Position numbers and translations under genes: made by a program. The notes below the pieces were generated by a model. That model was not told the DNA's origin, ran no database searches, and worked only from the letters and a program-made list of their open reading frames with translations. Of a stretch of 64,000 nt of DNA, positions 12,354 to 25,022 are shown one piece after another (positions within the stretch are counted from its first letter, which is position 1; every line of letters starts with the position of its first letter). Source of the stretch: Flavobacterium luminosum (GTDB lineage Bacteria; Bacteroidota; Bacteroidia; Flavobacteriales; Flavobacteriaceae); assembly GCF_023635005.1 (NCBI RefSeq), contig NZ_JAMLJM010000003.1, forward strand, positions 1 to 64,000. The letters are read 5' to 3'.

Positions 12354-13160
12354 TTAATTGGACATAAAATCAGAATAGGTACTTTTTATAATAATTTCTG
12401 AATTTACATAGGGGTTTTGCGCATTTGAAATCATGATTTTCGTTGGATTACCTTCCCCATCATATTCGTATTGATATAAGGTTGGTGCTTCGTTATCTTT
12501 TTGTTCTGAGATTACATTTCGTTTTTCGTCGTACTGATATATGACTTTACTTTTTAAATCGAAAGTTTGGTAATTTCCTTCCCTTAACAAACCCTCTTTA
12601 TAAATTTCGACGGACAAATTATCTTTCTTTTTCCCTTGATTGTAATAAGAGGTTTTGGTATAACTATCATCAGAAGTGTAATTAGTATATTCCGTAATTT
12701 CTGCAAAACCTGTTTCCTTTTCTTTACAAACCGATTTTATTAATCGATTTTGCTTGTCATACGAATATTTCGTTTCCGAAAACAATCTGCCTTGCACAAA
12801 ATCTTGTGATTTGGTTAATCGTAATTCTTTATCATAGAAAAACAACGTTTTGTCTTGGGTTTCACTTAATTTATAATCCGTGATTTTAGAAACTAGACAA
12901 TTATCAATATTAAATTTACATTTGGTAATTTCTTTTGCATCGCCCAAATCCACTATTACAGAATCTAAATATTGATTGTAAAAGGTATAAATTTCCGTTT
13001 TTGTCCATTCTTTTGCCTTGGTTTCTGGATTGAAATAAAAAATTTCTTTTTGAAGCGTTGCCGTTTTGGGCGACCAATTAAAATGTGAGGCTAGAAATTG
13101 CTCTTGCGCTTGCAAACCCAATCCGAGTAAAGCAATAATTGAAACCATTAAACTTTTCAT
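12354..13160 (-). CDS. Exported YD-repeat protein, short paralogue (operon gene 7)
   Basis: This 268-aa protein starts at MKSLMVSI, which gives a clean signal peptide (cleavage near LQAQ). The start lies 4 bp after the upstream stop, whereas longer starts would run deep into the upstream gene. It shares with the next three genes the N-terminal xxSHFNWS-type motif and tyrosine-rich YD repeats (YSYDKQNRLIK, YQYDEKRNVISE, YEYDGEGNPTK). It lacks their C-terminal domain. YD repeats also occur in RHS/teneurin proteins, but there is no RHS core or toxin tip. Function is unknown and the likely location is the envelope. Confidence 0.8.
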   Translation of the reverse strand: MKSLMVSIIALLGLGLQAQEQFLASHFNWSPKTATLQKEIFYFNPETKAKEWTKTEIYTFYNQYLDSVIVDLGDAKEITKCKFNIDNCLVSKITDYKLSETQDKTLFFYDKELRLTKSQDFVQGRLFSETKYSYDKQNRLIKSVCKEKETGFAEITEYTNYTSDDSYTKTSYYNQGKKKDNLSVEIYKEGLLREGNYQTFDLKSKVIYQYDEKRNVISEQKDNEAPTLYQYEYDGEGNPTKIMISNAQNPYVNSEIIIKSTYSDFMSN

Positions 13161-13164
13161 TTTT

Positions 13165-14487
13165 CTATTTTTTAAATAATGGATATAATCTTCCCGCTTC
13201 TGCAGCATCAACATTCTGGATTTGATAAATGGCTCCATCAACTGATTTTACCACCAAATGCTTCGGGTTTTCATCATCTTCAATGGAGTAATTGCTACTT
13301 TGTAAATACTTTCCGTCTTGATAAAATGAAATTTTATACTTATTATCTTTAACCCAAAATATTTTTGTTGGTGATTCCAATTTTATAGCATCATGCCATT
13401 CATGTTTTGCAAAATCATCTAAATAAAAATCTTTTACAAAATGTACCGATTGATCTACTTCATTAAAAATTACCAAACTGGAATGCTCTGGTGTATCAAC
13501 TAATTGCACTACTTTTTCAAAATTATTATCATAAGAATCTTGAATTTCAATTCTATCATCTTCGCCTTTTAAAACTGTTAAATAATTTGTTCTTGAATAA
13601 GCAACTTTTTGATACTGTTGCAATAACGAATCTTTCGCTCTAAATAACTTATCGTTCTTTTTAATGAAATTTAAATCTAATTCCGTGCTCCCAGAAGTTG
13701 TTCCATCTGCGTAGGTGATTTTCGCAAATGCAAACGAATTATCATCGGGCAATGCTGGAATCACTTTTGCGATTTTTATCCGATTGTTCTTTGCATCAAA
13801 TTCGTAATTAAAATCTATTCGGGAGCTATCGTCATACACTTGAGAGACCACATTTCTAAAATGGTCATAAGAATATTTCGTAGTCGAATTAAAATCCACT
13901 GAAACCATGTTTTTTTCGATGAGCAACCCATCTTTATAAATTTCTTTGGTAAAATCACTTCCTGAACCATCGTTGTTTTTCTTGATTTTGGTATAACTGT
14001 TTTTATCAATATAGTCTTTGTAAAAAATGGTTTCCGAAGGTTCATCATCTGCATTTAATTCCACTTCTTTAATCAGATTTCCTTTTTTATCGTATTCGTA
14101 AGTAGTAGACGACATGTGTTCTACATTTACTTTCTTCAACTTTCCTTTTTCGTACTGAAATAAAAATCTGATTGGATGACCAAAATCACCTATAATGGGT
14201 TTATAATTGATTTCTTTCAGTGTTGAGTCGGAATTATAGACATATGAATATTCCCCTGAAATTTTTTCTTCTTGATAAATATTCTCTAAAATTTGCCTTT
14301 GAACATAGGTGTTTTTAATCTCTGTGATGTAGTAGTTCTCTTTAACAAATTTGCTTTGATTTTTATCAAACTTATAGAGCGATTCTTCCACTTTTACCAC
14401 ATCATCAGAATAACCAAAATCGGAAGTTCTAAATTGTTGTTGGGCAAAACTCCACACCGAAAAAAAGAGTAGAATTATATTTTTCAT
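13165..14487 (-). CDS. Exported YD-repeat protein, paralogue (operon gene 6)
   Basis: This 440-aa protein has a signal peptide (about 1-15, WSFAQ) followed by TSDFGYSDDVVKVEE, a motif shared with the two upstream paralogues. YD-type repeats occupy about 70-240 (YEYDKKGNLIKE, YSYDHFRNVVSQ, YEFDAKNNRIK). Next is the shared linker FAFAKITYADGTTSGST. A C-terminal domain of about 170 aa ends in HEWHDAIKLESPTKIFW and a YPL-like terminus, as in the neighbours. The ATG overlaps the preceding stop by one base. No catalytic motif is visible; a structural, binding or signalling role is only a guess. Confidence 0.82.
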   Translation of the reverse strand: MKNIILLFFSVWSFAQQQFRTSDFGYSDDVVKVEESLYKFDKNQSKFVKENYYITEIKNTYVQRQILENIYQEEKISGEYSYVYNSDSTLKEINYKPIIGDFGHPIRFLFQYEKGKLKKVNVEHMSSTTYEYDKKGNLIKEVELNADDEPSETIFYKDYIDKNSYTKIKKNNDGSGSDFTKEIYKDGLLIEKNMVSVDFNSTTKYSYDHFRNVVSQVYDDSSRIDFNYEFDAKNNRIKIAKVIPALPDDNSFAFAKITYADGTTSGSTELDLNFIKKNDKLFRAKDSLLQQYQKVAYSRTNYLTVLKGEDDRIEIQDSYDNNFEKVVQLVDTPEHSSLVIFNEVDQSVHFVKDFYLDDFAKHEWHDAIKLESPTKIFWVKDNKYKISFYQDGKYLQSSNYSIEDDENPKHLVVKSVDGAIYQIQNVDAAEAGRLYPLFKK

Positions 14488-15794
14488 TATTTCGATATTA
14501 ATTCTAATGGATAAATTACTAAAGCTTGCATTTGATCTAAATGTGGAACAAAATATTTTTCTTTGCCATTTTCTGCTATCACTAAGGTATTTCCATCGAT
14601 ACCTTTGTGAAGTTTGTATGGAGACGATTCTACAACATTTCCTTTTTCAAGAATAAAGAAATTCCAATCGGTATTTACTACAATGTATTTCCCTGTTGGT
14701 GAATTATAGGTAACCGTTTCATACCATTCATTTGATTTGTAAGCATCGGTAAATAATCCAAACAAGACCACTGTTTCATTGGTTTTGGCATCGTAAAAAA
14801 ACATATCTTTTTGTTCAAAAATCAAACTTTCCTTCGGATTGATGGGAACAATTTCACCCTTACTATTTTTTACTTCATAATGCGTTGGGCTAGTTTTCAT
14901 TACCTTATATTTCTCTTTTGGATTTTTATTCATTGCCATTAAAAGAATAGGTTGCTGTATTCCTTTAGTAAAATAAGGCGCAAAAGTTGTACTCCCTGAA
15001 GTAGTTCCGTCTTTAAACGTTACTTTTGAAAATTTCGAATATAAATCGGCTGCATCATTGCTTCGCTCTTTGATTATATTTCCTTTTTCATCATAAGCAT
15101 ATACCGTTTCATACAGATAATTAGCATTACTTGTGGATTTTAGCAGATTTCCATAAACATCATATTCTAATTTATAAATCGTTTCTTTATTGTCTTTAGC
15201 GCTAATATGTTTGTAAGCAATTTTATTCCCATTTTTGTATTCACCTTCTTCTGAAAACAACAATTCATTTTTTTGAGATTGATAATACTTTAAATGATAT
15301 TTATAACTCTTCGGATGAGTATAATTGAAAAATGTTCTTTCCTCATCTATGGTATTACCGGTCTTCTTAACCCATTTTATTAAATTTCCTTTTGTATCAT
15401 AAGTAAACTCCTCTGATATGGAAGCTTCAGTATTTCTATCCATAAAAATTTTGACTAGCTTTCCGTTTTTATCATAGAAAAATTGTTTTGGATATCTTCC
15501 TTCGGCTTCAATTTTCAATAATTGCCCTTTTGGATCGTAAGTGAATTTTTCAACTTTATTCATAACGCCACCAAAAATCCCTGTTTCTTGATGGGTTCTC
15601 TGAACCAATTTACCTTCTTTAAATTCTAAAATTTCAGTTTTTGAAACTTCAAAGTTTTTAATTGCAGAATTGTATTTATATTCTACCGATTCATATTTCA
15701 CAACATCTTTCGAAAGATGAAAATCGGAAGTTAGATGCTTCTCTTGAGCCAATCCAAAGGCAAAAATCAGACTAAAAAAAACTCCTAATCGCAT
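14487..15794 (-). CDS. Exported YD-repeat protein, paralogue (operon gene 5)
   Basis: This 435-aa protein has a signal peptide (about 1-16), then LTSDFHLSKDVVKYES, YD repeats (FTYDPKGQLLKIE, FFYDKNGKLVKIF, FTYDTKGNLIKW, LEYDVYGNLLKS, YAYDEKGNIIKE), the linker FSKVTFKDGTTSGST, and a C-terminal domain including NEWYETVTYNSPTGKYIV and a YPLE terminus. It is clearly paralogous to the genes on both sides, consistent with local duplication. Spacing of 2 bp to the upstream gene implies a single transcript. Confidence 0.82.
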   Translation of the reverse strand: MRLGVFFSLIFAFGLAQEKHLTSDFHLSKDVVKYESVEYKYNSAIKNFEVSKTEILEFKEGKLVQRTHQETGIFGGVMNKVEKFTYDPKGQLLKIEAEGRYPKQFFYDKNGKLVKIFMDRNTEASISEEFTYDTKGNLIKWVKKTGNTIDEERTFFNYTHPKSYKYHLKYYQSQKNELLFSEEGEYKNGNKIAYKHISAKDNKETIYKLEYDVYGNLLKSTSNANYLYETVYAYDEKGNIIKERSNDAADLYSKFSKVTFKDGTTSGSTTFAPYFTKGIQQPILLMAMNKNPKEKYKVMKTSPTHYEVKNSKGEIVPINPKESLIFEQKDMFFYDAKTNETVVLFGLFTDAYKSNEWYETVTYNSPTGKYIVVNTDWNFFILEKGNVVESSPYKLHKGIDGNTLVIAENGKEKYFVPHLDQMQALVIYPLELISK

Positions 15795-15796
15795 AA

Positions 15797-17155
15797 CTAA
15801 TTATTTAAAAATTCTAATGGATAAAAGGTTTCAAAACCTTTCGAATTCAAATCGCGAATGATGTATTTGTCAATTCCCGCTTCTTGTACGATAAAATCAT
15901 CTTCTTTTTGTGTTTTTACTAATTTGTACAAGGACATATCGGCTAAAACGCCATTTTGAATCACATAAAACTCAGGTGCTTCAGAAAAAATCCAGTATAA
16001 ACCGGTTGGAGATGGCAACTCTATCATAGTATACCATTCCCCTACTTTTACCTCATCATTGTAGAAGTTTTTCAACAATACCGACTTTTTGAACAAGATA
16101 TCATACACCAAAATATCATTTTTGCTTTTTACCGCTTCCACATCATTCGTAATTTCCTCACCGTTAGCATCTTTAATGGTAAACGTGTTTCCTTCATTTT
16201 TTTTGATTTTGTAGGTTGAAGTCGTTAAAGCTTTTAAGTCGTCAAGTGCATTATTCAATTCTTCTCCTGAAACTTCATTAAACGTAAAGCTCACTTCATA
16301 GGAAGCCGATTTAGGTTCATATTTTTTAACGTAATTAACATCAAAATCTAAGCTGCCTTCTGTTTTCCCATTAGCGTAAGTTACTTTGGCGAAAGTGAAA
16401 TAATTGGTATCGGGCATCCCATCAAAACCTTGTTGAATGACTCTTGATTTAAGCACATTTCCTTTAGTATCATAACTATAATTATTTGTCCAACTTTTCC
16501 CATCAGAGGTTTGAGTAACTTCATTACCCAATTTATCATAAGTATAAGAGGTTTCGCCCTGATAATATTTGCTGATTAATTTTTCTCTGATCATAAAACC
16601 ATTTTTAAACCATTGTTCATGAGTTCCTTGTTCGGTTTCGTTATAACAATTATTTGCTTTTTTATAATACGTACCGGGAGCAGTGTAATTACTATAAATA
16701 ATTCTTCTTACCAAAGCACCATCTTCATGAACCATTTCTTTGTTTAAATTCCCTTTTGCATCGTATTCGTAGGTACTTTTTGAATTGGAATCGCCGTCTT
16801 TGAGTCGTTCTACAATTTTTCCGTTTTTATAAATAAACTTTTCTGTTGATAACGAATTTGAACTCAATGTCTCAATACTTTCCAATTGACCGTTTTTATA
16901 GTTGAATGTATTTACACTTTGTGCATAAATGAAGTAATTCATTACGTTTTCAATTTTCGCAACCAACCCTTTGTTCAAATAGATTGTTTTTTTACTACTC
17001 ATTTGATATTTGTTCTGACCTGCATCAAAATAAAATTCTTGTGTTTCATATTTCGTGACATCTGAACTCAACTGAAAATCAGACGCCTTATATTTTGCTA
17101 TTTGCGCATTAGTAAAACTGGCTGCTAACAATGCTATAATCAAAAAATTTTTCAT
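15797..17155 (-). CDS. Exported YD-repeat protein, longest paralogue (operon gene 4)
   Basis: This 452-aa protein has a signal peptide (about 1-17, FTNAQ), then KASDFQLSSDVTKYET, YD repeats (YEYDAKGNLNKE, YTYDKLGNEVTQ, YSYDTKGNVLKS), the linker FAKVTYANGKTEGS and a C-terminal domain with GEWYTMIELPSPTGLYW and a YPLEF end. It shares this layout with the two genes downstream. The 31-bp gap to the upstream MORN/zinc-finger gene is the longest in the operon but shows no terminator. Function is unknown. Confidence 0.82.
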   Translation of the reverse strand: MKNFLIIALLAASFTNAQIAKYKASDFQLSSDVTKYETQEFYFDAGQNKYQMSSKKTIYLNKGLVAKIENVMNYFIYAQSVNTFNYKNGQLESIETLSSNSLSTEKFIYKNGKIVERLKDGDSNSKSTYEYDAKGNLNKEMVHEDGALVRRIIYSNYTAPGTYYKKANNCYNETEQGTHEQWFKNGFMIREKLISKYYQGETSYTYDKLGNEVTQTSDGKSWTNNYSYDTKGNVLKSRVIQQGFDGMPDTNYFTFAKVTYANGKTEGSLDFDVNYVKKYEPKSASYEVSFTFNEVSGEELNNALDDLKALTTSTYKIKKNEGNTFTIKDANGEEITNDVEAVKSKNDILVYDILFKKSVLLKNFYNDEVKVGEWYTMIELPSPTGLYWIFSEAPEFYVIQNGVLADMSLYKLVKTQKEDDFIVQEAGIDKYIIRDLNSKGFETFYPLEFLNN

Positions 17156-17186
17156 ATTTATTTTCTTTAGAATTAATTAAACCGTA

Positions 17187-18791
17187 TCAATCCTGATACA
17201 CTTCTCCTGTGCCGTGACAGGTGCCGCAAGACGCAACAGGATACCTGCCGGAGCCTTTACAATAGACACATTTGTCGGTTCCTCCTTGTCTGTAAACTAA
17301 AGTAGCTTTAGAATTGTATCCTGCTCCACCGCAACCAGGACAAACCATAAAAGAATTTCCGCTACCAGTACAAGTAGGACATTTGTAAAAACGTCGATTA
17401 CTTTCGGCTTTTTTAGGTTGCACTGTTGGTTCAAATGAAATTGTAATATGCCGTTCTTCTAGTTTTTTATTGGTTACATCAAAGCTGTAAATTCCCACTT
17501 GTTTCTTATTGTTTTTGTACAAATCAGCAAGTACAGCTTTGCCATTACTCCATAGTTTATCGTCAATATAATCAACATCATTAAAATAATAAATCCCTCT
17601 TTTTTCTGGAAGGAAATGTTTATTAACAGTTCCTTCATAGCGATGTCCATTCGCAAATTTTAAGTTTCCAATATAGGCCTCGTTTTCGTCTAAAGGGTTA
17701 AATGTTGTGTAAACATCTCCATTTTTAAATTGATATTTTGCTTCAATAATATTTCCATTTTTATACACAAATTGGCAAGGTTCTGTAAAATGAAAATGAT
17801 TTAAATACTGAAAATCACAAATTCCATCAATGAGATTGTTCTTGTTTAAATTTGCTTTTAGTGCATACTGCTTCATTAAATAGAAATCGTCATAAAAAAT
17901 GAAATCTACAGGGTTTTGAATTTTTCCACTAAGAAAATTTACTTCAGCAACTCCTCTTTGATTTTCTTTGTTAATTAAAAGTTTGGCAGCTCCGTTGTGA
18001 CAGTTCCCGTCAAAGCAAAATGTAAATTCATTCAGTTTAGTAGCTTTGTATGCAATACCATTATATATTACATTCCATTCATTATTTAAATAAGTGGTAC
18101 CTATACAATTATTTTGAACGGAGTAATTCAAGTAAGTCAAAGTTCCATCATTAATTATTTTCCAAAAACCTCCTGGTTCATTTCTACTTAGGTATTTACC
18201 TTGAACATAAGAACCATTACTTCCTTTGTATTCTATCGGTCCTGCATAGCCATTTGCGTTAGAATAAGACAAATCCAGAGTACTCCCGTCTTGATAATAA
18301 TAAGTCCCCAATTCATAAAAAGAATTCCCTTCTTGTTTACTTCTGTTTACCACGAGAGAATCTCCGTTTTTAAATTGGTATTTTAACGTATTAAAAGGTT
18401 CTCCATTTTCAAAAAAATGAATCTTTTCTCCCGTCTTCTTGGTGTAAACCCCATCACTAAATCTTCTTCTCCAATTAAAAAATAAAGTACCTTTATAACT
18501 ATCTCCGTTTTTAAATTTGACTTCCCCAACCAAGCCAGAATATGTCTTATTACCAATAAGAATATCTGTATATCGCCCTTCAAATTTAGCTTCGGTTATT
18601 TTAAATTTCAATTGAAACGTTTTACTCTCAGTTTTCTTGGGAAAATCTATACTTTTTTCATCTTCGTAAATGGTTGTATAATGAGGTAATGTCTCAGGTT
18701 TTGGAATAGGGATATGTTTCAACCACGACTCTTGTGCTGTGACAATTTGAAAAGCGAGCAGCAGAAAACCAAACAAATAGTACTTTTTCAT
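17187..18791 (-). CDS. Exported MORN-repeat protein with C-terminal DnaJ-type cysteine-rich domain (operon gene 3)
   Basis: This 534-aa protein has a signal peptide (about 1-19, IVTAQ). MORN-like units recur through the middle (NGDSYKGTLFF, FKNGDSLVV, YQDGSTLDL, FANGHRYEGTV). The last 66 residues (469-534) contain four CxxCxGxG motifs: CPTCTGSG, CPGCGGAG, CVYCKGSG and CGTCHGTG. That is the full complement of the zinc-binding region of DnaJ, but there is no J domain. If exported as predicted, a DnaJ-like zinc domain would sit outside the cytoplasm. The function is unknown. Confidence 0.82.
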   Translation of the reverse strand: MKKYYLFGFLLLAFQIVTAQESWLKHIPIPKPETLPHYTTIYEDEKSIDFPKKTESKTFQLKFKITEAKFEGRYTDILIGNKTYSGLVGEVKFKNGDSYKGTLFFNWRRRFSDGVYTKKTGEKIHFFENGEPFNTLKYQFKNGDSLVVNRSKQEGNSFYELGTYYYQDGSTLDLSYSNANGYAGPIEYKGSNGSYVQGKYLSRNEPGGFWKIINDGTLTYLNYSVQNNCIGTTYLNNEWNVIYNGIAYKATKLNEFTFCFDGNCHNGAAKLLINKENQRGVAEVNFLSGKIQNPVDFIFYDDFYLMKQYALKANLNKNNLIDGICDFQYLNHFHFTEPCQFVYKNGNIIEAKYQFKNGDVYTTFNPLDENEAYIGNLKFANGHRYEGTVNKHFLPEKRGIYYFNDVDYIDDKLWSNGKAVLADLYKNNKKQVGIYSFDVTNKKLEERHITISFEPTVQPKKAESNRRFYKCPTCTGSGNSFMVCPGCGGAGYNSKATLVYRQGGTDKCVYCKGSGRYPVASCGTCHGTGEVYQD

Positions 18792-18795
18792 AATG

Positions 18796-20025
18796 TTAGT
18801 TGTTAGGAATTAGAATTACATCTGACACATCTTTAGGTTGTGGTGTCGAATTGATATATTTATGAATAGCCACCAAAAGTCCACTAGTTGTGGGTTCTAT
18901 TGCGGTTACAGCTTCGCTCCCTATGGCAGAGAAATTAGTCGCTATTAAAGAACTCCCGGAAACTTTATATAGTTTTTCATCGTTACATAGAATATAAATC
19001 ACATCATTGACAATTGCTATATCTTTAAAACCTGGTGTAACGGTTATATTTGAAACAACACTTGTAATCGCACTTCCGGTAAACTTGAAAATATCGTATG
19101 TTGCTGTTCCGTAGCGTTTCATCACAATAAAAGGCTGATTTGGCGTAGCGCTGTTTTCGGTTAAAAAAACCGTGTTTTTTCTATCGATACCCGACAAACC
19201 TACAGTGCCAATACCTGTTAAAGTAGTCACTGAACTAAAATTCGTCCCGTCAAAAGAAATAATATTCATTTTTCCATTGTCTAAAGAAGTATCATAATTA
19301 ATCCAACTCCAATACACCGTATTTCCCACTTTTAAAATATGGCTCGTACAATAATTGTTATTGGTATCCAAAACAAATCCCGGAACCAATTGTGAACTCC
19401 ATGTAGAGGTCGTATTATTCCGAGTATATAAACTGGGTGCCCCACTATTTGAATTCAAACCGGCACTCAGCATGTAAAAAGTATTTCCCAAATAGAACAT
19501 ATAGCCGCTGGCCAAAGGGGAATAAGGTCCATTATTGGTATTCAGAGAATGATTAATAAACTTGGCTGTTCCTTCTCCAATAGCACCCATCCCATAAGGG
19601 TTTTCATAAGAAATCGATGTTAACTGATTTGCTTCGTTTACATAAAAATCTCCTTTTAAATCCAATACCAAACCCGAACTGGAAGCCGTAGCCGGAGTGG
19701 CAATTTCCCCTTGTACATTAGTCATAAAATTGTAACTCTGCAGAGAAATCGCATACACCGAATTATGGGCTAAGAATGCTATTTTAGAATCCTCTTCTAT
19801 CAGCTGAAAGATGGTAGATCCGTGATTATTGTTATTATCATCCAACCTACAATACGATCGGAATTTGAATTGAACTCCTTTCGAATGATAAAACTGTTTA
19901 GCCTGCTGTGTTTCTTGTACAGAAGTGCTATTAGAATTTCCTTCTCCTCCCTCAATCTCCGAACCCGCCTCTGGAGAACAAGACAAAAGAACCAAAAGAC
20001 CCGCAAAATAAAATCCTTTTTTCAT
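18796..20025 (-). CDS. Putative lipoprotein, beta-propeller-like (operon gene 2)
   Basis: This 409-aa protein has a lipoprotein signal peptide with lipobox LLSC (Cys about 16), followed by an acidic and Ser/Gly-rich linker (SPEAGSEIEGGEGNSNS). Negatively charged residues after the cysteine would suit export to the cell surface in Bacteroidota. The remainder has repeated short beta-strand patterns (KVGNTVYWSW, IVNDVIYILCNDEKLYK) suggestive of a propeller. It sits 5 bp after the barrel-like gene and 4 bp before the MORN gene. No enzyme motif was found. Confidence 0.75.
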   Translation of the reverse strand: MKKGFYFAGLLVLLSCSPEAGSEIEGGEGNSNSTSVQETQQAKQFYHSKGVQFKFRSYCRLDDNNNNHGSTIFQLIEEDSKIAFLAHNSVYAISLQSYNFMTNVQGEIATPATASSSGLVLDLKGDFYVNEANQLTSISYENPYGMGAIGEGTAKFINHSLNTNNGPYSPLASGYMFYLGNTFYMLSAGLNSNSGAPSLYTRNNTTSTWSSQLVPGFVLDTNNNYCTSHILKVGNTVYWSWINYDTSLDNGKMNIISFDGTNFSSVTTLTGIGTVGLSGIDRKNTVFLTENSATPNQPFIVMKRYGTATYDIFKFTGSAITSVVSNITVTPGFKDIAIVNDVIYILCNDEKLYKVSGSSLIATNFSAIGSEAVTAIEPTTSGLLVAIHKYINSTPQPKDVSDVILIPNN

Positions 20026-20030
20026 GATTG

Positions 20031-20738
20031 TTAGTTTAAAAAGTGATACTGAACACCAAATCCTACGTGGTTGCTTTTAAAAGAAGACGTCCCTCCATTG
20101 GCGTTAGTCCAGGAGTATTTCCCAAAATCAAAAACGGCATTACAAGACCATTTTTCTGATTCTGATTGATAAATTACCGGTTGTAATCCCCAACCCACAT
20201 ATTTCATTGTTCTTTTTACCGTTTCATCTTGAAAACCGATGCCGATATAATCTGTCTCAAGAATTTTACCGCTTCCTATTCCGTAGTCAAAATGTAAACT
20301 GTTAATACTCGAATAAATACCAATCCAAACCGGGATTTCAATAAGAAAAGGTAAACCTTCCGGTGCTATTTTTTCAAAAGCCTCTTCCACATTTCCGTGA
20401 TACGCCAAAGGATAAACTCTTAATCTTGCGTTAGGAACAGATACTTTTAATTCGGTACTTCTATCAGCGGCTAAAAAATTAGCCCAATCCTGTCCCAATA
20501 CCACTGCCCCTTTAAAACCAAACTGGGTGTTTTGGGTATAATTCACATGATACGAACCTTCTAAACTCGTAAACAACTGCATCGCTTTTCCTTTAACTGC
20601 AACTTCGCCTAAATCGTCTCCAGGTTTTGAGAACGACATTCCCGTATTAAATTTTATGGCTAATTTGTCTAATTGAGCCGTTGCATTTTGAAAAGCAAAA
20701 GCCAAAATAAGTATTGAAAATAAGGATAGTTTTTTCAT
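20031..20738 (-). CDS. Putative outer-membrane beta-barrel protein (operon gene 1)
   Basis: This 235-aa protein has a signal peptide (about 1-21, ATAQ), alternating hydrophobic and polar strands, glycine/aromatic patterns (FGFKGAVVLGQDW, YVGWGLQPVIYQ, VGFGVQYHFLN) and a C-terminal aromatic residue close to the end (FLN). This resembles small porin-like proteins of Bacteroidota. It is the first gene of the seven-gene operon, and the ATACG-N8-CGTAT palindrome lies 77 bp upstream of its start. It may anchor or export the other envelope products, which is inference. Confidence 0.65.
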   Translation of the reverse strand: MKKLSLFSILILAFAFQNATAQLDKLAIKFNTGMSFSKPGDDLGEVAVKGKAMQLFTSLEGSYHVNYTQNTQFGFKGAVVLGQDWANFLAADRSTELKVSVPNARLRVYPLAYHGNVEEAFEKIAPEGLPFLIEIPVWIGIYSSINSLHFDYGIGSGKILETDYIGIGFQDETVKRTMKYVGWGLQPVIYQSESEKWSCNAVFDFGKYSWTNANGGTSSFKSNHVGFGVQYHFLN

Positions 20739-20814
20739 AATAATCTTCAGAATTAGTAAAACATTTTTTGTCTTAATTATGAAGTAAAATTATGAGGAAG
20801 AAGTACGTAAAGAA

Positions 20815-20832
20815 ATACGCAAAAATGCGTAT
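20815..20832. promoter_or_regulatory. Palindromic operator candidate, ATACG-N8-CGTAT (site 1)
   Basis: The 18-bp sequence ATACGCAAAAATGCGTAT lies between the response-regulator stop and the first gene of the seven-gene envelope operon. It matches site 2 (23773-23790) at 16 of 18 positions, with the same arm spacing and the same AAAAAT core. A LuxR/NarL-type dimer commonly binds such inverted repeats, so the adjacent response regulator is the natural candidate binder. Confidence 0.65.
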
Positions 20833-20837
20833 ATTGA

Positions 20838-21485
20838 TTAAATCAACTTATTATTTTTTGCCTTTTGAATGGCTTCTAATTTATTGTGTACCTGAAGTTT
20901 GGTATAAATATTTTCTACGTGTTTGCGTATGGTCCCGGGCGACAAAAATAGATTTTCAGCAATGGCATTGTATTTTAAGCCTTTGCTTAGCTGCTCTAAA
21001 ACTTCAATTTCTCTTGAAGTCAAACTGATTTCTTCTTTGGCGATCGAATCATCAAAAATCAAAGGCTCTCTTAACAACTTCAACGTTTTCATCGCAATGG
21101 AAGGAGTCATTGCGGCACCTCCTGACAGCGTTTCTTGAATTCCGTTATACAATTCCTGAGGATTGACCTCTTTGAGAAAATAACCATCCGCGCCGGCTTT
21201 AATGGCCTTGAAAATGTTCTCATCATTATCAAATACCGTTAGCATAATGATTTTGATTTGTGGAAACTTCGCTTTAATAATCGCGGTAGCCTCTATCCCA
21301 TTCATTTTCGGCATCTCAATATCCATCAAGATCAAATCGAGATGGTGATTTTTTTCTAATTTTTCAATAATATCCTGACCATGAATCGCTTTGATGCGGA
21401 CTTCAACATCAGCAAAAAAACTCAATTTATCTTGAACTGTTTTTTGTAAAAATGTATTATCGTCGACTATGGCAATGCGAATCAT
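20838..21485 (-). CDS. LuxR/NarL-family response regulator
   Basis: This 215-aa protein has an N-terminal receiver domain (acidic Asp8/Asp9, phosphoacceptor Asp55 in LILMDIEMPKMNG, conserved Thr and Lys in MLTVFD and GYFLKE). The C-terminal LuxR-type helix-turn-helix (about 150-210) contains LTSREIEVLEQLSKG and SPGTIRKHVENIYTKL. Its ATG overlaps the kinase stop by 4 bp, so the two form a coupled pair. It is placed between its kinase and the seven-gene envelope operon, with matching palindromes ahead of both operons, which suggests that it regulates both. Confidence 0.92.
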   Translation of the reverse strand: MIRIAIVDDNTFLQKTVQDKLSFFADVEVRIKAIHGQDIIEKLEKNHHLDLILMDIEMPKMNGIEATAIIKAKFPQIKIIMLTVFDNDENIFKAIKAGADGYFLKEVNPQELYNGIQETLSGGAAMTPSIAMKTLKLLREPLIFDDSIAKEEISLTSREIEVLEQLSKGLKYNAIAENLFLSPGTIRKHVENIYTKLQVHNKLEAIQKAKNNKLI

Positions 21486-23407
21486 GATTCTTTATTTAAT
21501 GTAATAGCAACTCGAGTTCCTTTCGTAAGTTCGGATTGAATTTTGAAAATCCCTCCTATTTCTTCAATGCGTTTTTGCATGTTCACGATGCCATTCCCTA
21601 CCTCAATGGCATGTACCTCAAAACCTTTTCCATTATCGGTAATTATAATTGAAATACCGTTTCTACTGGGTTCTACCTGAACAGAAATTTCAGTGGCATC
21701 CGCATATTTTATGGCATTATTCACGGCTTCTTGAATGGTTCGATACAAATTAACTCCTTCTAAAGATGAAAATTGGTAATTTTTCAAACGATCATCCACC
21801 GTAAATTTAAACGTGGTATTTTCTTTGGCCGATTGCGCTTTTTCAATGAAATTATAAATTCTGGAACTTAAATCGTCAAATGTAAATTCATTCGCATTCA
21901 TTGCCCAAATCGTGTCACGAAGTTCTACAATGGTGGTTTTAGTAAAATCGCTAATTTTAGTCAAATGATTTTTTACTGAAGTTTCCATTGCTGGAAAACC
22001 AAACTTCAAATTTTCAACCGAAGAAATAATAAAAGTCAACTGTGCTCCAATATTATCGTGTAAATCTCTTGAAATTGCCAAACGTTGCTCTTGTAATTTG
22101 TTTTGATTTTCAATTTGAACAATAGCCGATTGTAATTCAAATTCTTGTTTTTGTTGTACATTTTTAAGACGTTGTTGACGGTAAATTAAAAACCCTACAA
22201 TTGCAAGGAAAAAAATCAACAATGATAAAATAATAATTGTGGTAGTTTTCTTTTTTGTTTCAGCTTCTTTTTGCAACAGTTGTTTTTCCTTTTCAGCAGT
22301 TTGATATTTAGTTTCCAACTCTGCTGTTTGTTCCAATACCGAAGCTTTTAATTTTTCATCTTTTAAATTTGTATATTTATTAAAATAATAAGCACTACTA
22401 TCTTTCATTTCCTGATACAAACAAACTAACGTTAATTTTTTGTAGGTTTCTAACAAATATCTATCGGAGTCATATTCTTTGTGAATCTTTTTAACTTTCA
22501 ATAACATCTCGTAAGCTTCACGATATTTTTTTTGTTGAATGAAATCTTCCGATTTTGATAACATTACATTCGTTTGCTCAATTTCAGAATTTAATTCTTT
22601 TAAAAGTTTCTCTGAAATTTGATAATACTTTTTCGCATTTTCTGATTTTCCTTTTGCGGAATGTACTGCACCTATTCGCTGATTTAGAGTTGAAATCCCA
22701 AGATTGTCTTTGCATGATTTACAATTTTCGAGACTTATTTGGTATGAATTCAGAGCTTTCAAAGTGTCTTTTTTATCCAAATACACATCACCAAGAGAAA
22801 GATACGTGTGACACAAACCTTGTTGCATGTTATTCTTTTTCAAAAAATCGGTTGATTCTTCTAAATATTTAATGGCTTTCGGAAAGTTCTTCATTTCGAA
22901 GAAAATCAAACCTAGATTCCCTTTGGTCAAACTTACGATGGTATCATTTTTACCTTCAAAATATTGAATTGCCTCAATAAAATATTTAGTCGCTGGCACA
23001 TAATCTTGCTTACTTGCCAATACATTTCCTATATTGATTTTGACTTTGGCTACTCCTTCAAAATCTTTATTTAAGGTTCTGATTTGAATTGCTTTTTTAT
23101 AATTTTCTTCCGATTTTATGAAGTTTTCTTTACGTAAATAAACACCTCCTAAATTAGAATAGCATTGAGAAATAAGTTGGTGTTTCTTGGTTTTATGAGC
23201 TAATGCTAACGCTTTTTCTCCATAAACTATGGCTGAATCAAGCGAAACATCCATGTAATCCCAGGTTAAATCAGAATAAATTTGGGTAGTTCTTTCTACG
23301 TTAGGCTTTGATTTTAATTCTTTTTTTAACGCTGCGATATGTTGTTGCAAATCTTGCGCAAAACTAACACCGCTAATTAAAATCAATAGAAAAGCAAATT
23401 TTTTCAT
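21482..23407 (-). CDS. TPR-containing sensor histidine kinase (HisKA_3 family)
   Basis: This 641-aa protein starts at MKKFAFLL, which gives a proper signal peptide (cleavage near FAQ); an upstream in-frame ATG adds a non-signal extension. The periplasmic part (about 25-370) carries TPR-like helical pairs. A transmembrane helix at about 387-407 is followed by a coiled segment, the phosphoacceptor His450 in SRDLHDNIGAQL, and the ATPase domain with NNAIKYA (about 563) and DNGKGF (about 591). It should phosphorylate the overlapping LuxR-type regulator. The signal sensed is unknown. Confidence 0.92.
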   Translation of the reverse strand: MKKFAFLLILISGVSFAQDLQQHIAALKKELKSKPNVERTTQIYSDLTWDYMDVSLDSAIVYGEKALALAHKTKKHQLISQCYSNLGGVYLRKENFIKSEENYKKAIQIRTLNKDFEGVAKVKINIGNVLASKQDYVPATKYFIEAIQYFEGKNDTIVSLTKGNLGLIFFEMKNFPKAIKYLEESTDFLKKNNMQQGLCHTYLSLGDVYLDKKDTLKALNSYQISLENCKSCKDNLGISTLNQRIGAVHSAKGKSENAKKYYQISEKLLKELNSEIEQTNVMLSKSEDFIQQKKYREAYEMLLKVKKIHKEYDSDRYLLETYKKLTLVCLYQEMKDSSAYYFNKYTNLKDEKLKASVLEQTAELETKYQTAEKEKQLLQKEAETKKKTTTIIILSLLIFFLAIVGFLIYRQQRLKNVQQKQEFELQSAIVQIENQNKLQEQRLAISRDLHDNIGAQLTFIISSVENLKFGFPAMETSVKNHLTKISDFTKTTIVELRDTIWAMNANEFTFDDLSSRIYNFIEKAQSAKENTTFKFTVDDRLKNYQFSSLEGVNLYRTIQEAVNNAIKYADATEISVQVEPSRNGISIIITDNGKGFEVHAIEVGNGIVNMQKRIEEIGGIFKIQSELTKGTRVAITLNKES

Positions 23408-23446
23408 ACAAATACCGGATTCAATCATTATGACTAAAGTAATGAA

Positions 23447-23719
23447 TTATCTTTTTAAAAGTATTTCTAATAGTATTTTCTGAAACAGAAAGATTTCATC
23501 ACTAATTTTTTTCACAAAAGGATTGTAATTTACTTGAAAATCATTCCAAATAGATACCTTCTGTTGTAAGATTTCATGCTTCTTTGATAATTTTTTAAAA
23601 ACCTCCCTCAACTGTTCCATTTGCAGATGATGTTGTTGTTTTAAAATTACATTCATCCCTATGAGGTGCACTCCCAAAACGAAGAGCAAAAAAAGTAAAA
23701 GCAATATCATGGTATTCAT
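23447..23719 (-). CDS. Small membrane-anchored coiled-coil protein, first gene of the two-component operon
   Basis: This 90-aa protein has one strongly hydrophobic helix (about 4-25, rich in Leu) followed by a charged heptad-like segment (QLREVFKKLSKKHEILQQKV). It is not a family I recognise. It lies 39 bp upstream of the histidine-kinase start in the same direction, and the second palindrome lies 54 bp before its ATG. A role as accessory to the kinase is possible but unproven. Its small size keeps confidence moderate. Confidence 0.55.
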   Translation of the reverse strand: MNTMILLLLFLLFVLGVHLIGMNVILKQQHHLQMEQLREVFKKLSKKHEILQQKVSIWNDFQVNYNPFVKKISDEIFLFQKILLEILLKR

Positions 23720-23772
23720 AATCTAAAGTCTTAAACCAATTACAAATTTGCCCTAAGACCTTTAGTTTCTCA

Positions 23773-23790
23773 ATACGAAAAAATACGTAT
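23773..23790. promoter_or_regulatory. Palindromic operator candidate, ATACG-N8-CGTAT (site 2)
   Basis: ATACGAAAAAATACGTAT has the same 5-8-5 architecture and AAAAAT core as site 1 at 20815-20832. It lies upstream of the small-protein/kinase/regulator operon, which would make this an autoregulatory site. Confidence 0.65.
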
Positions 23791-23892
23791 TTAGTATTCG
23801 TGGTGAAATATCAATTAAAACAAAATCATACTTTCTAACTGACAATAATCGCTTTAAAGCTTCCAAGCCTTCTTCGCTAAACCTTTACATAT

Positions 23893-23955
23893 GTCATACT
23901 AAACTTGTTTCAGCATCACCTCCCTTATGTCATTCCGAGCTCTTTTTTGGAATCT
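23893..23955. repeat. Two-unit GTCATTCCGAA-type repeat, left copy
   Basis: Two degenerate units, GTCATACTAAACTTGTTT and GTCATTCCGAGCTC...GGAATCT, are separated by a CACCTCCC-like spacer. The same arrangement recurs at 24580-24638 on the other side of the lipocalin gene. The intact unit is a short inverted repeat (ATTCCGAA/TTCGGAAT) resembling dispersed repeats I recall from Bacteroidota genomes. Confidence 0.6.
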
Positions 23956-23971
23956 TAACCCCATCTATTCT

Positions 23972-24511
23972 TTATTTCCTTTGGTCATGTTTCACCCATA
24001 AAAGGTCTGCGGTAGTAAATCCAATCGAATCGGCTATTTTAAGATAGTGTTCTTTAATCGCTTCAGGAAGATGAGGCTTACGAGATAAAATCCACAAATA
24101 CTTAAGATTTTTCCCCGCCACCAAAGCGTATTGGTAGTTTTCATCGATGGCAATGACATTATATCCCGAATAAAAGGGTCCAAAAAAAGATACTTTAAGC
24201 ATCCCCACATGTTCCGCTCCAACAAACTTCGCCTTGCCTATGGCTTGCGTCCATGTTTCCTTTTTGGTATGATACCCCTTATTATCGACTTTTATTGTAC
24301 CATCTTCATTCAAAGAATAGAATGCGGTAGTGTTACTCAAATCTCGTTCGTATTTAAAATCCAATCGCGCCATCTCATACCACTTCCCTAGATAGCGTTC
24401 TTTATCAAAAGACTGAACCGCCACAGCTCCATTCGGTATAGTACTACAAGAGTAGAATCCTGTCATCAGAGTAACCATCAGGAATAAAAGAAGTAAGGTT
24501 TTGATTTTCAT
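23972..24511 (-). CDS. blc: Outer-membrane lipoprotein lipocalin (Blc type)
   Basis: This 179-aa protein has a lipoprotein signal peptide with cysteine at about 22 (GFYSC). The lipocalin signature GKWYEMARLDFKYERDLSN follows, then YSLNEDGTIKVDNKG, YNVIAIDENYQYALVAG and WILSRKP. Together these make a complete Blc-type eight-stranded barrel. Bacterial Blc binds lysophospholipids and fatty acids at the membrane. The gene stands alone between two copies of a short two-unit repeat. Length is normal. Confidence 0.93.
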   Translation of the reverse strand: MKIKTLLLLFLMVTLMTGFYSCSTIPNGAVAVQSFDKERYLGKWYEMARLDFKYERDLSNTTAFYSLNEDGTIKVDNKGYHTKKETWTQAIGKAKFVGAEHVGMLKVSFFGPFYSGYNVIAIDENYQYALVAGKNLKYLWILSRKPHLPEAIKEHYLKIADSIGFTTADLLWVKHDQRK

Positions 24512-24579
24512 TGTTTTTGATTTTTTATTTTACCTATTTAAGAAGTTTAATACTTTTTAATTAAAGTATTGTATTTTTT

Positions 24580-24638
24580 GTCATTCTGAACTTGTTTGGA
24601 ATCTCCTCCCCTGTCATTCCGAACTCGTTTCGGAATCT
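24580..24638. repeat. Two-unit GTCATTCCGAA-type repeat, right copy
   Basis: The units GTCATTCTGAACTTGTTT (24580-24597) and GTCATTCCGAACTCG...CGGAATCT (24613-24638) are joined by a CTCCTCCCCT spacer, the same order as at 23893-23955. The second unit forms an ATTCCGAA/TTCGGAAT hairpin. The rest of 24512-25022 is AT-rich and holds no gene that I can support. Confidence 0.65.
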
Positions 24639-24900
24639 CTTCAACATCACTCACAATTCCTCGTGAATCATTACACTGATAATTAATATAATTCTTACCA
24701 TAGTCGTACGATACATAATTAGTACTTCATCCCAGTTAGATTCTTATTTTATTATTAGTTGTGGTACTACTTATTATTTCAAATTTAAGTTATTTCTTCT
24801 CAAAAAACACCAAACTCATAGAAAATACAAACTAAACTAAAACCATATTAAAATAAGGAAAACAAAATCAATAAAGGTTAGTTCCAGTATGGATGCTTAA

Positions 24901-24922
24901 TAGATACGGTATAGATACGGTT
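24901..24922. repeat. Tandem 11-bp repeat (TAGATACGGTA/T)
   Basis: Two consecutive near-identical 11-mers, TAGATACGGTA and TAGATACGGTT, lie in non-coding AT-rich DNA. No function can be assigned. Confidence 0.5.
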
Positions 24923-25022
24923 AGGTTGTGGTACCCCTGTAAAAAGAAATACAATCAACATTCGAAGAAAATCTGAAACCATGAAACAAAATTTAAACCG
25001 TATAAGGCTCATAAGTAAATAT

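Follow-up and report, generated by a model that had tools for sequence, protein, structure and literature searches.

Two palindromic sites of 18 bases, operator 1 (20815-20832) and operator 2 (23773-23790), in the first 64,000 nucleotides of contig NZ_JAMLJM010000003.1 of Flavobacterium luminosum (the stretch that was analysed, here called the window) are very probably the on-switches by which a sensor kinase and its response regulator activate themselves and the neighbouring surface genes. Operator 2 precedes the genes for a small membrane protein, the kinase and the regulator (the sensor operon), operator 1 precedes a seven-gene envelope operon. This gene order had been described in an initial annotation of the stretch, and its proposal that the LuxR-type regulator controls both itself and the adjacent envelope operon is supported by the comparisons presented here; the eleven genes counted there for the module are in fact ten, i. 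e. the seven envelope genes and the three genes of the sensor operon. At the level of sequence, our analysis establishes the sites, their fixed inner gap, their spacing to the promoter, their co-occurrence with the regulator and their place 5' of the putative targets. We consider it likely that the regulator, a protein of the LuxR/NarL type, acts through the palindrome as a class II activator of its own and the envelope operon.

The palindrome in the window and in the host genome

The motif ATACG-N8-CGTAT is present in the window at these two places only, as the initial annotation had stated, and the scan also agreed with it on the 5-8-5 architecture and on the identity of the two copies at 16 of 18 positions, the exceptions being positions 6 and 13. 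In first-order shuffled versions of the window, an exact match occurs 0.027 times on average, and none of 300 such versions contained two. With up to two mismatches allowed, the window has 26 matches compared to 18.26 expected. There are 119 perfect 5-8-5 palindromes in the window with 91 distinct arms, and since 17 of these arms are used more than once, a repeated arm is unremarkable by itself. It is the genome-wide and comparative results rather than the mere repetition of the arms that set the ATACG/CGTAT pair apart.

The host genome (2.65 Mb in 25 contigs) contains three exact copies in total. The third one (C19:244835) is located directly behind the stop codon of an oppositely oriented gene, inside a hairpin formed by an A-run and a T-run, and it lacks the TTTG that follows the palindrome at the fixed promoter distance of 26 bases. 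When the palindrome and this TTTG were searched for together, the window sites were the sole matches with no or one mismatch, and thus the many unrelated copies that the initial annotation had named as an argument against its proposal were not encountered in this genome. At two mismatches, the same scan gave seven further matches and its reversed control gave 11.

Association with the regulator and the promoter in relatives

A scan for the regulator provided 79 named loci (from the best 80 of 521 confirmed stretches; 1.44 Mb). Most of them are from Flavobacterium, one each is from Cloacibacterium, Winogradskyella and Aequorivita, and some are metagenome bins named to the family or above. At least one site was found in 77 of the 79 loci. 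The inner gap is strictly kept: The two arms are separated by eight bases in 194 cases and by any other distance from 0 to 20 in 0 to 5 cases each, and the controls for the 194 sites yielded two matches in shuffled sequence and none with the reversed pattern. As many as 177 of the sites are flanked on both sides by genes on the strand of the regulator, and eight lie elsewhere outside reading frames. The consensus extends to about AAATACG-N8-CGTATTT. In the Flavobacterium loci, the site is found 5' of genes for FGE-sulfatase-like, OmpA/PD40 and secretion-system-tail proteins, and the gene content beside the sites differs strongly between species. The first gene of the envelope operon, which encodes a predicted barrel protein, occurs 14 times in the 79 loci, a set chosen via the regulator, and all 14 copies are accompanied by both palindrome and regulator; relatives with the operon but with neither the sites nor the two-component pair, the second possible refutation raised initially, were thus not seen there. 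In these 14 cases, the site ends 52-78 positions before the called start and is followed by TAnTTTTA at offset 22, and this includes the Cloacibacterium locus (L132).

The distance between the palindrome and the core promoter is constant as well. TTTG starts exactly 26 bases past the site in 139 of the 186 distinct downstream sequences from the 79 loci, and if TTTA is also accepted, the number rises to 170; both window copies fit. The longer form TAnnTTT(G/A) is present at offset 22 in 66 of the 186. In the window, the site is followed at a distance of 22 bases by CAAATTTG at operator 2 and by TAATTTTA at operator 1. The 3' edge of the palindrome falls into the -33 place, and the last base of the site together with the next two reads TTT or TTG in 173 of the 194 sites. 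Sites of class II activators are located near -41 to -45, and the fixed distance to the core promoter found in the 170 sequences places the palindrome near this range; the labels "class II activator" and "-33 element" are those which we take to be appropriate here. In Flavobacterium psychrophilum, the positions -12 to -5 are taken by the -7 box TAnnTTTG (PMC9723704), and this placement combined with the fixed spacing puts the palindrome at about -52 to -35 with its centre at -43.5. The palindrome would thus border on and partly cover the -33 place, a geometry that suggests class II activation by the regulator. A scan for sigma-70-type promoters, which is unsuited to this phylum, found 19 compared to 16.1 expected.

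The promoter of the sensor operon is surrounded by an inverted repeat. In an alignment of the window with 18 relatives, 17 cells of this repeat have changed on both sides as compared to 3.9 +/- 1.8 after shuffling; when the repeat was slid along the alignment, at most seven such changes were found, but by the number of pairs (six) the slide of -2 equals it. The 18 relatives were taken from the 26 promoters of small-protein cluster 11, with near-identical ones and 17 promoters of other small proteins excluded. In 14 of the 18, a run of at least six T residues, terminator-like for the upstream gene, directly precedes the start codon, which is not the case in the window copy.

Among 121 genomes of the genus, at least 26 encode the regulator (E <= 1e-60; scoring covered the first 25 candidates per genome). 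The palindrome extended by one base on each side occurs 3.6 times on average in the regulator-positive genomes versus 0.73 times in the negative ones. The palindrome with TTTG at 26 was found in 22 of the 26 positive genomes (68 sites) versus 11 of the 95 negative genomes (12 sites), and the reversed control matched once over all 121 genomes. Of the 68 sites, 48 are within 30 kb of the best regulator match on its contig, and eight of the other 20 belong to a single genome, G061. Thirteen site-bearing stretches from the 11 negative genomes were inspected: The window regulator has a match in three of them, namely in L287, in L289 and, as a partial match some 4.5 kb away from the site, in L290, and none in the other ten. 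The barrel protein is encoded in four of the 121 genomes (E <= 1e-15), and in all four its gene adjoins that of the regulator. One genome without the regulator at the threshold, G080, has runs of palindromes at 43-base steps on the contigs C5, C6 and C15; the form is AATACGTTAGRCAACGTATT on C5 and C15, whereas C6 has other forms.

The association reaches beyond the genus. The regulator (E <= 1e-70) is present in at least 75 of 299 genomes and at least 61 of 236 genera of the Flavobacteriaceae, both lower bounds because scoring was limited to 10 candidates per genome. In 40 family loci (L241-L280), which were long contigs near the top of the match list plus a few lower ones, the gap of eight bases occurs 51 times and the other gaps from 0 to 16 occur 0 to 2 times each, except for a gap of one base with nine. 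The site is present in 32 of the 40 loci, in 27 of them with TTTG at 26; of the 51 sites, 31 have TTTG and eight have TTTA at this distance. The first genes after the 31 TTTG sites belong most often to a cluster of small putative lipoproteins (19) or a cluster of proteins of about 625 amino acids (aa) (5). A frequent order in the family is two conserved genes (which we take to be alaS- and GSCFA-like), the site, the small lipoprotein, the protein of about 625 aa, a small open reading frame (ORF), the kinase and the regulator. It thus seems that the sensor and its code are old and that the marked genes change.

Proposed mechanism and alternative readings

We suggest that the sensor kinase with its TPR domain phosphorylates the LuxR/NarL-type regulator and that a dimer of the regulator binds the palindrome AAATACG-N8-CGTATTT, which ends 22 bases before the -7 box and covers the -33 place, so that the bound regulator would stand in for the -33 element. 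At operator 2, it would switch on the small membrane protein, the kinase and itself, resulting in positive feedback; at operator 1, it would switch on the seven envelope genes, i. e. those for the barrel, a putative lipoprotein, a CXXCXGXG protein and four RHS/YD-like proteins. From the sequences we infer that this very regulator is the binder, that it activates rather than represses, and that phosphorylation and a signal take part.

Several observations weigh against this interpretation. The exact motif is absent from two of the 79 named loci, from five of 29 genus stretches (one of them, L062, is a short contig) and from eight of the 40 family loci, and no palindrome with TTTG at 26 is present in four of the 26 regulator-positive genomes. 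Nine of the 194 sites are within reading frames as defined by a crude ORF caller. In the family, 20 of the 51 sites have no TTTG at 26, and 13 of these 20 lie at most 700 bases before the regulator gene. A further point is the arrangement ATACG-N1-CGTAT, which occurs nine times in the 40 family loci. Moreover, the loci are related and were picked as the best regulator matches, and the genus genomes overlap with them, so the counts are not independent; a genome counted as negative may still hide the regulator, given the 25 (genus) or 10 (family) candidates that were scored.

The sites might be the operators of another regulator, for instance a distant paralogue, or the regulator might repress through them; we regard this as improbable. 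It would be in line with the regulators of 26 and 29% identity that were found near sites in G037 and G016, genomes without a close regulator, and with two off-locus places in G061 at which regulators of 25 and 29% identity stand beside sites, all of which also weighs against the mechanism proposed above. The sites at these distant regulators have the form ATACGTATWWATACGTAT or nearly so. Thus, the motif class is probably common to at least two groups of regulators, and the idea that the motif is exclusive to this regulator across the genus was rejected because of these three genomes. However, the host genome has no second close regulator, its best other match reaching 31% identity over residues 2-131, and the presence of the site follows this regulator across the genomes of the genus. 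Finally, a palindrome centred at -43.5, on the -33 place, is more in keeping with activation than with repression. G061 itself contains 10 sites with TTTG at 26 (L300-L306), mostly ATACGTATWWATACGTAT and scattered over the genome, and matches to distant kinases and regulators were present at two of the seven places that were fetched; the corresponding loci in G037 and G016 are L287 and L289.

It is very improbable that the palindromes are intrinsic terminators, i. e. RNA hairpins, instead of operators, even if some of their properties would be expected of terminators. Operator 1 starts five bases past the stop codon of the regulator gene and was picked up in a terminator scan as a weak hairpin with a T-rich tail (three such hairpins in the region as compared to 1.9 expected), again a point against our interpretation. 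The sites are often close behind a stop codon (median seven bases, n = 177), the third copy in the genome resembles a 3'-end hairpin, and in 146 distinct sites the inner positions are complementary beyond the shuffled expectation (6/13 in 53 versus 39.8 sites, 7/12 in 84 versus 54.0). But terminators need neither a fixed gap of eight bases between fixed arms nor a fixed distance to a -7 box, and on these two grounds the terminator-only reading was rejected. In addition, operator 2 is about 180 bases away from the preceding gene and the sites track the presence of the regulator genome-wide, both unlike terminators. Operator 1 may have a double role as operator and weak terminator. The possibility that the palindromes are a dispersed repeat or a recombination site that carried cassettes has next to no probability in our view: The gene content around the sites is highly variable between species as for mobile cassettes, but conservation beyond the site is found mainly at the -7 box, and the low copy number per genome, the constrained orientation and the constrained distance to the next start led us to reject this reading.

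Products of the two operons and known systems

The kinase scores above the Pfam cut-offs for PF13424 (103.8 bits), PF07730 (35.1 bits) and PF02518 (45.3 bits) and is thus a TPR-type HisKA_3 sensor kinase. The receiver (PF00072, 85.7 bits, cut-off 30.2) and GerE domains (PF00196, 65 bits, cut-off 23.5) of the regulator are equally clear. In 120 aligned regulators, D55 and K105, presumably the phospho-acceptor Asp and the switch Lys, as well as R187, K188 and H189 are each conserved to at least 98%. In the three paralogues of the host genome whose alignment extends through the C-terminal part, E or S stands in place of R187 and T in place of K188, and two of the three retain H189. This conservation of the recognition region fits a shared operator, and it does not imply contact. 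The small protein of 90 aa has no match in Pfam or NCBIfam. In relatives, it has about 80-100 aa, a hydrophobic N-terminus and a charged tail and is encoded ahead of the kinase in most loci; an ORF of 70-130 aa is found at this place in 60 of the 79 loci. By a looser rule (75-125 aa, 9 kb before the regulator), a small ORF is present in 28 of the 40 family loci, a count that includes at least one seemingly unrelated ORF (L262). An Rfam scan of 19000-25000 gave no match.

The 235-aa barrel protein and the 409-aa putative lipoprotein match no Pfam or NCBIfam family. The model of the former (alignment of 11 sequences) has a mean predicted local distance difference test score of 84.2 and a predicted template modelling (TM) score of 0.78. 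It most resembles the structures of OmpA, OmpX and Ail; the top eight TM-scores of 0.33-0.47 by query length indicate a shared fold class, not a close relative. The four distal envelope proteins all match the RHS repeat.

Features of the sensor operon, the envelope operon and their predicted control elements (positions in the window)
Feature	Position	Strand	Basis or remark
Operator 2, ATACG-N8-CGTAT, 5' of sensor operon	23773..23790	-	0 mismatches to palindrome + TTTG at 26; predicted -52 to -35
Covarying inverted repeat, 15 column pairs tested, -7 box TTTG in loop	23725..23762	-	alignment with 18 relatives
-7 box CAAATTTG, one mismatch to TAnnTTTG	23743..23750	-	TTTG 26 bases past operator 2; predicted start ~23738
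Small membrane protein, 90 aa, hydrophobic N-terminal stretch and charged tail	23447..23719	-	ORF comparison
Sensor histidine kinase, 648 aa: TPR, HisKA_3, HATPase_c	21482..23428	-	Pfam, NCBIfam
LuxR/NarL-type response regulator, 215 aa: Response_reg + GerE	20838..21485	-	Pfam, NCBIfam, alignment, solved structures
Operator 1, ATACG-N8-CGTAT, perfect 7-4-7 inverted repeat	20815..20832	-	1 mismatch (TTTA for TTTG); predicted -52 to -35 of envelope operon promoter
-7 box TAATTTTA	20785..20792	-	22 bases past operator 1; predicted start ~20780; box type kept in 14/14 relatives
Outer-membrane beta-barrel protein, 235 aa, predicted; OmpA/OmpX-like fold class	20031..20738	-	structure prediction and structural search
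Putative lipoprotein (by eye), 409 aa	18796..20025	-	no family match
Putative secreted protein, 534 aa, C-terminal DnaJ-type CXXCXGXG stretch below Pfam cut-off	17187..18791	-	Pfam, NCBIfam
RHS/YD-repeat-like protein, 452 aa	15797..17155	-	Pfam
RHS/YD-repeat-like protein, 435 aa	14487..15794	-	Pfam, NCBIfam
RHS/YD-repeat-like protein, 440 aa	13165..14487	-	Pfam
RHS/YD-repeat-like protein, listed 295 aa; listed TTG start may lie 5' of true start	12354..13241	-	Pfam, NCBIfam

NarL-type autoregulated two-component systems are an already known class, and the window module belongs to it. The regulator shares receiver and GerE domain with regulators of the NarL/VraR/DesR type, and VraR (5hev), DesR (4ldz) and NarL (1a04) are among the 11 solved sequences closest to it; among the best 25 of its 110 NCBIfam matches, which include NarL, MctR, MadR, NarP and UhpA, none reaches the cut-off. 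The closest pair in the Bacteroidota that we can name is FimS/FimR of Porphyromonas gingivalis, like the window pair a kinase and a regulator with a (here predicted) action on surface genes, although the targets are unlike. FimS is a TPR kinase, and the NCBIfam model for it matches the window kinase best over the TPR part (residues 22-185) with 78.4 bits as compared to a cut-off of 600. For FimR, binding to the mfa1 promoter region and a role as an activator there have been reported (PMC1974823); the paper uses none of the terms palindrom, inverted repeat, binding site and luxr. Two-component control of an envelope function in the Bacteroidota, type IX secretion, is also exerted by PorX/PorY-SigP (PMC4800418). 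The window regulator matches the PorX model with the receiver part only (47.9 bits, cut-off 300), and unlike in the PorX/PorY-SigP case, it has a GerE DNA-binding domain of its own. Literature searches with narrow terms, a weak test of novelty, yielded no description of the regulator, the motif or the locus.

We lean towards the view that the module represents a family-wide and apparently undescribed three-part surface sensor of the Flavobacteriaceae, consisting of a small membrane protein, a TPR kinase and a LuxR regulator, with one conserved operator-promoter code; the marked surface genes would have been swapped between lineages, and paralogous groups of regulators would use variants of the code. 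The operator and the spaced -7 box make up a testable DNA code from which the target genes may be read. This code makes the regulator accessible to assays, and the rewiring of different sets of surface genes to one sensor could be traced between species. Moreover, it suggests how activators may act on the unusual flavobacterial promoter: The palindrome would replace the -33 element.

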